45,820 bases of DNA from a bacterium (lineage in GTDB: Bacteria > Electryoneota > AABM5-125-24 > Hatepunaeales > Hatepunaeaceae), in the NCBI GenBank assembly GCA_025774605.1, contig JALGVR010000009.1:1-45820 (forward strand), written 5' to 3'. The position numbers and the translations under genes are program-made. The notes under the pieces are model-generated. The model saw only the letters and a program-made list of their open reading frames with translations, was not told the DNA's origin and searched no databases. Numbering within the stretch: position 1 is the first letter of the stretch; every line of letters starts with the position of its first letter. Shown in pieces: positions 7,125-45,820 of the stretch.

Positions 7125-7388
7125 TTATTCCGGATTGTAATATTGCTTAGCTTTGTAGGTAAGCTGTACGATGAACCCGGTTTTGCCTCCCGAATATGCG
7201 ATCCTGTCGTTTGGATACCTCTCCGCAAGCGATAACTTCAGTTCCTGATAGAGCTCAGCTACATCCGGGAACTCGCGCAAATAATCCCTGAAATATAACC
7301 TGTCCCATAACTCCGAATCGCCTTCTCGGTTCGGACATTGTAGGCACCCCCTGAGGTTAAAATTATAGCCTTTTCCTCGTGTCGACAA
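7125..7388 (-). pseudogene. GrpB-family (UPF0157) 3' remnant
   Basis: SELWDRLYFRDYLREFPDVAELYQELKLSLAERYPNDRIAYSGGKTGFI resembles the C-terminal third of GrpB; the preceding 20 or so residues do not, and the N-terminal two thirds are missing. Confidence 0.65.
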
Positions 7389-7492
7389 ATTCGGGGGAAG
7401 ATCACCATTGGTGAAGCACGGGCTAATCCTTAAGGTTCACCGCCCTCTCATATTCGTCCAATAATGTCGCAATGAGCTCTTTGACAGGAACG

Positions 7493-7544
7493 ATTTTATC
7501 TACGCGATACGCATTTGAATTTTATCTACGCGATACGCATTTGA
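7493..7544. repeat. Perfect 26-bp tandem duplication at the 3' end of the nitronate monooxygenase gene
   Basis: attttatctacgcgatacgcatttga at 7493-7518 and again at 7519-7544. Confidence 0.97.
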
Positions 7545-8591
7545 TCCCGCGAAGGCGAATCCCTTTTTAAGCCTTCCCTTCTTCGCATTTGTCAGCGCAA
7601 AGGCTATGCAGTATGGCGCAGTTTCGTAATCACATGTTTTCAAACATTTCCAGGGACACATGAACGGTTTTTTCATCCCCTTAAGGACATCTTCAAGGAA
7701 TTGGTTTTTTATCGCCCTTCCCGGCAATCCTACCGGACTGTCAATTATGACAAGATCATCCTCCTGACAATTTATATAGGTCTCCTTGAATCCCAGCGAA
7801 GCATCACACTCCAGGGTGCCAACAAACCTGGTTGCCATTTGCACGCCCTGAGCGCCCAATTGCAGGAATTTATAGATGTCCGCTCCGGTATAAATGCCCC
7901 CCGCTACAATCACTGGAATATCCTTATCAAATTGCCTCTCAAAGACTTTAATTACGGAGATGACTTCCGTCAGTATCTTCTCCAGCGTATAATCAGGATC
8001 ATCAATCTGCTCCCGCTTGAAACCGAGATGACCACCGGCCAAAGGACCCTCGACAACCACCGCATCTGGAATATGGTTATACGATTTCGCCCAATACTTG
8101 AATACTATATTCGCGGCTCTTGCTGAAGATACTATGGGAACAACCTTGGTTGAAATATTTTTCAGCCTCTCCACCGGTATTTTTCGAGGGCTCCTTAAGG
8201 GAAGTCCGGCGCCGAGGAAGACTATGTCCGCGCCTTCATTCACAGCAACCAGCATAAGATCATCATAATCAGAAGAAGCCACCATTATATTTACACCAAT
8301 AATCCCATCAGTCATTTCCCTTGCTCTTCTAATCTCTTTAGTCAGGGCTCTGATGTTTGCTCCACTGAAATTCCTGCTGAAATCGGTTTCAAGCATACCG
8401 ATGCCGGCAGAGCCGATAACTCCGATTCCACCCTCATTGGCAACAGCGGAGGCTAATCCCGACAGAGAGATCCCAACGCTCATTCCTCCCTGAACGATCG
8501 GTATTTCAGCCTCAAGCGCCCCGATCCTCAACTTTGGCATTTTACTTGAATTCACAAACCATCTCCCTAACATGGCAAGATACTCCTGCAA
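7500..8591 (-). CDS. Nitronate monooxygenase (2-nitropropane dioxygenase-like), C-terminus altered by frameshift
   Basis: MPKLRIGALEAEIPIVQGGMSVGISLSGLASAVANEGGIGVIG and AGGIYTGADIYKFLQLGAQGVQMATRFVGTLECDAS; likely start MPKLRIG at 8540. Confidence 0.9.
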   Translation of the reverse strand: MQEYLAMLGRWFVNSSKMPKLRIGALEAEIPIVQGGMSVGISLSGLASAVANEGGIGVIGSAGIGMLETDFSRNFSGANIRALTKEIRRAREMTDGIIGVNIMVASSDYDDLMLVAVNEGADIVFLGAGLPLRSPRKIPVERLKNISTKVVPIVSSARAANIVFKYWAKSYNHIPDAVVVEGPLAGGHLGFKREQIDDPDYTLEKILTEVISVIKVFERQFDKDIPVIVAGGIYTGADIYKFLQLGAQGVQMATRFVGTLECDASLGFKETYINCQEDDLVIIDSPVGLPGRAIKNQFLEDVLKGMKKPFMCPWKCLKTCDYETAPYCIAFALTNAKKGRLKKGFAFAGSNAYRVDKIQMRIA

Positions 8592-22049: not shown

Positions 22050-22281
22050 TACCTGCCTGCGCAGGTATGACAAGTTGGTTACCTGCCTGCGCAGGTATGA
22101 CAAGCCGGATACCTGCCTGCGCAGGTATGACAAGTTGGATACCTGCCTGCGCAGGTATGACAAGCTGGATACCTGCCTGCGCAGGTATGACAAGCCGGAT
22201 ACCTGCCTGCGCAGGTATGACAAGCCGGATACCTGCCTGCGCAGGTATGACAAGCCGGTTACCTGCCTGCGCAGGTATGAC
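22050..22281. repeat. 30-bp minisatellite of hairpins, about 8 units
   Basis: tacctgcctgcgcaggtatgacaagYYggW repeated at 22050, 22080, 22110, 22140, 22170, 22200, 22230, 22260; each unit holds tacctgc-ctgc-gcaggta. Confidence 0.97.
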
Positions 22282-22497
22282 ACCCGGCGGACTTCTCCTA
22301 CAGGCGCTAATTCGTAATGGTCGATTTAATTCAACTCAATTACAGCATATAAATATATAAGCGATAACTTCAATAGTCAAAGATTTTAGCTCGCTGCCAC
22401 TCCAAGCCGGTAATAACTCCCCCTTAAGCACGACTCCTCCCGCTCCAGCATCCTGTAACCGTCCCGTTCAGGAACATGTTGAACAGACCGGCTTCGA

Positions 22498-45673: not shown

Positions 45674-45676
45674 AAG

Positions 45677-45820
45677 GTAACCCCCCCTTTTATCCCCCCC
45701 TACTTCGCAGGGGGGAAAGGATGTTAAAGGTAACCCCCCCTTTTATCCCCCCCCCTACTTCGCAGGGGGGAAAGGATGTTAAAGGTAACCCCCCTCCCTT
45801 TTTATCCCCCATTACTTCGC
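45677..45820. repeat. Three tandem family B palindromic elements (about 53-bp period), running off the window edge
   Basis: ggtaacccccccttttatccccccctacttcgcaggggggaaaggatgttaaa repeated three times with C-run length differences. Confidence 0.93.

Follow-up and report, generated by a model that had tools for sequence, protein, structure and literature searches.

A perfect tandem duplication of 26 bp in the 3'-terminal part of a FabX-like gene in a draft genome of the Electryoneota

The four cysteines of FabX hold a [4Fe-4S] cluster (PMC8626469). According to Waite et al. (2001, 2003, as cited in PMC4022640), perfect out-of-frame tandem duplications in pneumococcal capsule genes control phase variation. 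Spurious frameshifts are also known to be introduced by assembly (PMC11017572); on tandem-duplication errors of metagenome assemblies in particular, only this general paper on spurious pseudogenes was found in the literature.

The locus described here lies in a window of 45,820 nucleotides (the whole stretch of DNA analysed, from contig JALGVR010000009.1), in which a gene on the minus strand carries a perfect tandem duplication near its 3' end. The genome is represented by a single draft assembly with 175 contigs and 93% completeness. Relatives were collected from 61 genomes and from a public genome collection. The features of the gene are as follows.

7500-8540, minus strand: FabX-like gene as assembled (PF03060, NMO superfamily), 346 aa, ending ...KIQMRIA-stop (from the ORF, homologues and structures)
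7493-7544, minus strand: perfect tandem duplication, two 26-bp copies (from Tandem Repeats Finder and direct reading of the sequence)
7423-7492, minus strand: ancestral C-terminal tail, no longer read in frame, VPVKELIATLLDEYERAVNLKD (from the single-copy frame, homologues and the helix in the model of the G006 protein)

The unit ATTTTATCTACGCGATACGCATTTGA is present in exactly two head-to-tail copies at 7493-7544 (period 26, 2.0 copies, 100% match by Tandem Repeats Finder), as the original prediction had described and as direct reading confirms. In the reading direction of the gene, on the minus strand, the copy at 7519-7544 comes first and that at 7493-7518 second, and the layout of the site is GCCTTCGCGGGA-TCAAATGCGTATCGCGTAGATAAAAT-TCAAATGCGTATCGCGTAGATAAAAT-CGTTCCTGTCAA. 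The repeat is far above chance: in a random window of the same composition, about 2e-11 perfect two-copy repeats of period 26 are expected, and about 8e-8 of any period from 20 to 100. A 251-bp query spanning the site matched nothing in the genome other than itself. The run of period-26 matches is exactly 26 bases long, with zero extension on either side; the breakpoints are therefore without microhomology, and none was found there. The region also folds no better than shuffled sequences (z = +1.49), so that there is neither microhomology nor a stable hairpin to suggest a site designed for duplication. The identity of the copies had been taken to mean that the event is very recent, which is a weak argument, as zero differences in 26 bp bound the divergence only at about 11% (95%; 3/26); copy identity over so short a unit dates the event only weakly.

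The mechanically derived ORF runs from 7500 to 8591 on the minus strand, and the homologue in the relative G006 (87% identical) supports the ATG at 8540 as the start; numbered from this ATG, the duplication begins at codon 333, at the 3' end of the gene. Because 26 is 2 modulo 3, the duplication shifts the reading frame, and the assembled product ends ...YRVDKIQMRIA*, with QMRIA standing in place of the last 22 residues, which form the conserved C-terminal helix. In the single-copy frame, the DNA after the second copy still encodes VPVKELIATLLDEYERAVNLKD, with a TAG stop at 7425-7423. The frameshift, its coordinates and both translations are thus as originally predicted. Compared with G006, the 19 codons of the tail differ at 2, 3 and 11 first, second and third codon positions, and the 332 codons upstream at 29, 16 and 118. 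The tail therefore keeps a coding pattern, which suggests that it was constrained until fairly recently. Rescue by translational frameshifting is not supported: the ribosome would have to slip by a net -1 ahead of the TAG to regain the old frame, and inspection by eye found only AAAA and no standard slippery heptamer.

The original prediction had also proposed that the single-copy reading ends in a natural C-terminal helix, and alignment of the C-terminus to homologues bears this out. We found that each of the 42 homologues whose alignment extends through residue 358 (85% to 38% identity by tblastn) continues past KI with x-x-V-x-x-(L/I), and that their tail is mostly (V/I)SVKEL. None of these 42 ends at QMRIA, and none of them, all reading through this point, has the 26-bp duplication. 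Outside this set are two partial loci that stop earlier (L024 and L051), one locus that is itself frameshifted nearby (L039), and five remote paralogues that aligned only further upstream (L027-L031). In an alignment of 37 sequences, the tail too contains nearly invariant columns (G006 residues I341, V344, L347 and L351). The model of the G006 protein (mean pLDDT 91) has a terminal helix at residues 344-360 with pLDDT of about 98, and the equivalent of this helix is wholly missing from the window protein. Sequence comparison thus supports the single-copy reading as the ancestral C-terminus.

The gene had been named a nitronate monooxygenase, and its Pfam match is indeed to NMO (PF03060); the NCBIfam FabK model scores well short of its cut-off. 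Among solved structures, those of H. pylori FabX (PDB 7e1q and others) come closest, and a fold search with the G006 model also recovers them, at a TM-score of 0.87 and 38% identity. The NMO-type TIM barrel with its catalytic histidine (FabX His182) is present: EGPLAGGH aligns to EGPLSGGH around this residue, and H171 (G006 numbering) is invariant in the 37 aligned sequences, the window included. The segment CPWKCLKTCDYETAPYC aligns to the FabX cluster cysteines C300, C304, C308 and C320, which belong to the C-terminal subdomain, and all four are found in the window protein. Among the 37 sequences, C299, C303 and C311 (G006 numbering) are invariant and C295 is conserved in at least 90%; the four-cysteine motif is kept in homologues of several phyla (Dehalococcoidia, Planctomycetes, Desulfobacterales and others). 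With FabX structures closest and the histidine and four cysteines kept, FabX-like is therefore the better name, and from sequence and model the product would be a FabX-like flavin/[4Fe-4S] enzyme, putatively an acyl-ACP dehydrogenase/isomerase. This class appears to fit the ancestral gene, of which the assembled gene is a truncated derivative: the catalytic and cluster residues are all upstream of the break, and the complete C-terminal subdomain with its last helix is present in the ancestral gene and absent from the assembled protein. The truncation would be expected to weaken or abolish the enzyme.

We consider the most probable reading (probability about 0.58) to be that this is an ordinary private duplication, present as real DNA, that removes a conserved C-terminal helix and is no programmed device. 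A random, out-of-frame 26-bp tandem duplication would have arisen near the 3' end of the FabX-like gene, in the organism itself or in the strain variant that was assembled, and this unprogrammed event would truncate the enzyme. Loss of one copy could restore the gene, as it could for any perfect tandem duplication, but there is no sign that the organism exploits this.

That the duplication is real DNA is something we infer, and an assembly error is a possible, though less probable, explanation. The chromosome would then hold one copy and an intact gene, the second copy coming from an unmerged 26-bp contig overlap or from a minority or chimeric read path. Such an error is consistent with the fragmentation of the draft into 175 contigs, with the coding pattern retained by the tail, with the known capacity of assembly to create frameshifts (PMC11017572), and with a unit that is exact and unextended, as an unmerged overlap would give; however, real duplications are also often unextended by chance. 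Tandem repeats elsewhere in the same genome were surveyed in 1.25 Mb (44% of the genome), in which there are 48 perfect tandem arrays of period at least 12, with periods of 12-83 bp. Many of these are members of repeat families, for example a 16-bp one. The duplication in the window is the only exact, unextended 26-bp case in this sample; the other occurrences of period 26 are a roughly two-copy pair extended by two bases (L162) and a longer array (L065). Since the periods are spread over 12-83 bp, with no excess at 26 bp or at any other single overlap length, we rejected a fixed-overlap assembler signature, which argues against this explanation in its systematic form and leaves room for an isolated error. 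Only two arrays in the sample break a reading frame that reads like a gene when one copy is removed, namely this one and an exact, out-of-frame 19-bp tandem duplication at 12336-12373 of L093, in a gene for a putative signal-peptide protein. The latter gene carries a further apparent frameshift and has one weak match among relatives; a second exact duplication together with a frameshift in the same assembly would suit assembly error, and also fits decay.

Two other arrays were observed in the window. Positions 22050-22282 hold 7.8 copies of a partly palindromic 30-bp unit (TACCTGCCTGCGCAGGTATGACAAGCCGGA), and this genome has many tandem arrays of similar palindromic units with other periods. 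The contig breaks off within a 55-bp tandem array (45674-45820), and this end is therefore probably an assembly break caused by the repeat.

The original prediction had offered a very recent mutation, a reversible switch or an assembly error; mutation and assembly error both stay in play, and the switch lacks specific support. A switch would require frequent gain and loss of copies, with the population going back and forth between the full-length enzyme and one without the tail. The repeat is perfect and out of frame, as in the precedent reported for the pneumococcal capsule (as cited in PMC4022640), but a single state has been seen, no homologue has the duplication, the site is without microhomology or a stable hairpin, and the gene codes for a metabolic enzyme and not for a surface structure. 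We therefore regard a switch as very improbable, and slightly more improbable still the proposal that cells in nature acquire and shed the 26-bp unit, producing full-length and tail-less forms of the FabX-like enzyme and perhaps different fatty-acid states of the membrane. Equally far-fetched is a fixed and tolerated shorter version, in which the QMRIA end does no harm or is of use and the last helix is dispensable for the enzyme; all catalytic and cluster residues do precede the break, but every one of the 42 homologues keeps the tail, even at 38% identity, as does H. pylori FabX, and the tail is modelled with confidence as a helix.

Two further features lie downstream of the gene.

7328-7404, minus strand: probable insertion sequence, left end (dispersed copies in the relative G002)
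7125-7325, minus strand: grpB 3' fragment, fused to the insertion-sequence end (PF04229 positions 102-157 of 159; similar to L118 of G006)

The probable insertion-sequence end, read from 7404 down to 7328, is separated by 18 bases from the stop codon that the FabX-like gene originally had and comprises TGATCTTCCCCCGA..., a TATAAT box and ATG TCC GAA CC. It occurs once here, and G002, a relative in the same family, has six copies at 88-90% identity, which share the same starting base within differing flanking sequence and are located at contig ends. The name is an inferred one because no transposase was identified for this element. A longer grpB is found elsewhere in G006 (L118). An insertion and then a deletion seem to have reshaped the downstream region, and this scar is separate from the 26-bp duplication. 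A target duplication or excision footprint of the insertion sequence was rejected as the source of the 26-bp unit, as about 90 bp lie between it and the element's end, which is unrelated in sequence.

Most probably, then, the duplication is an ordinary private mutation or an error of assembly; it gives no evidence for a genetic switch. It calls for caution in annotation, as a conserved enzyme looks truncated in a draft genome through one small duplication. If the two-copy state proved polymorphic, the locus would offer a modest case of switching by duplication in the lipid metabolism of an uncultured bacterium.

With the spurious pseudogenes that arise from assembly error (PMC11017572), the locus shares a frameshift in an otherwise conserved gene of a draft assembly; that study differs in covering frameshifts and internal stops generally. 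The pneumococcal capsule genes, as they are described in the citing source (PMC4022640), likewise have a perfect tandem duplication inside an ORF that inactivates the gene and is reversible in principle; there, phase variation of a surface capsule is reported, whereas here the gene is that of a metabolic enzyme in one assembly. H. pylori FabX has in common with the FabX-like protein the fold, the active-site histidine and the four cluster cysteines, and its tail IISVHELIKELTE (...YRVDKI-ISVHELIKEL) aligns with the tail that is lost in the window. It differs in being about 38% identical to the intact relative, and the window protein, unlike FabX, is without the terminal helix.
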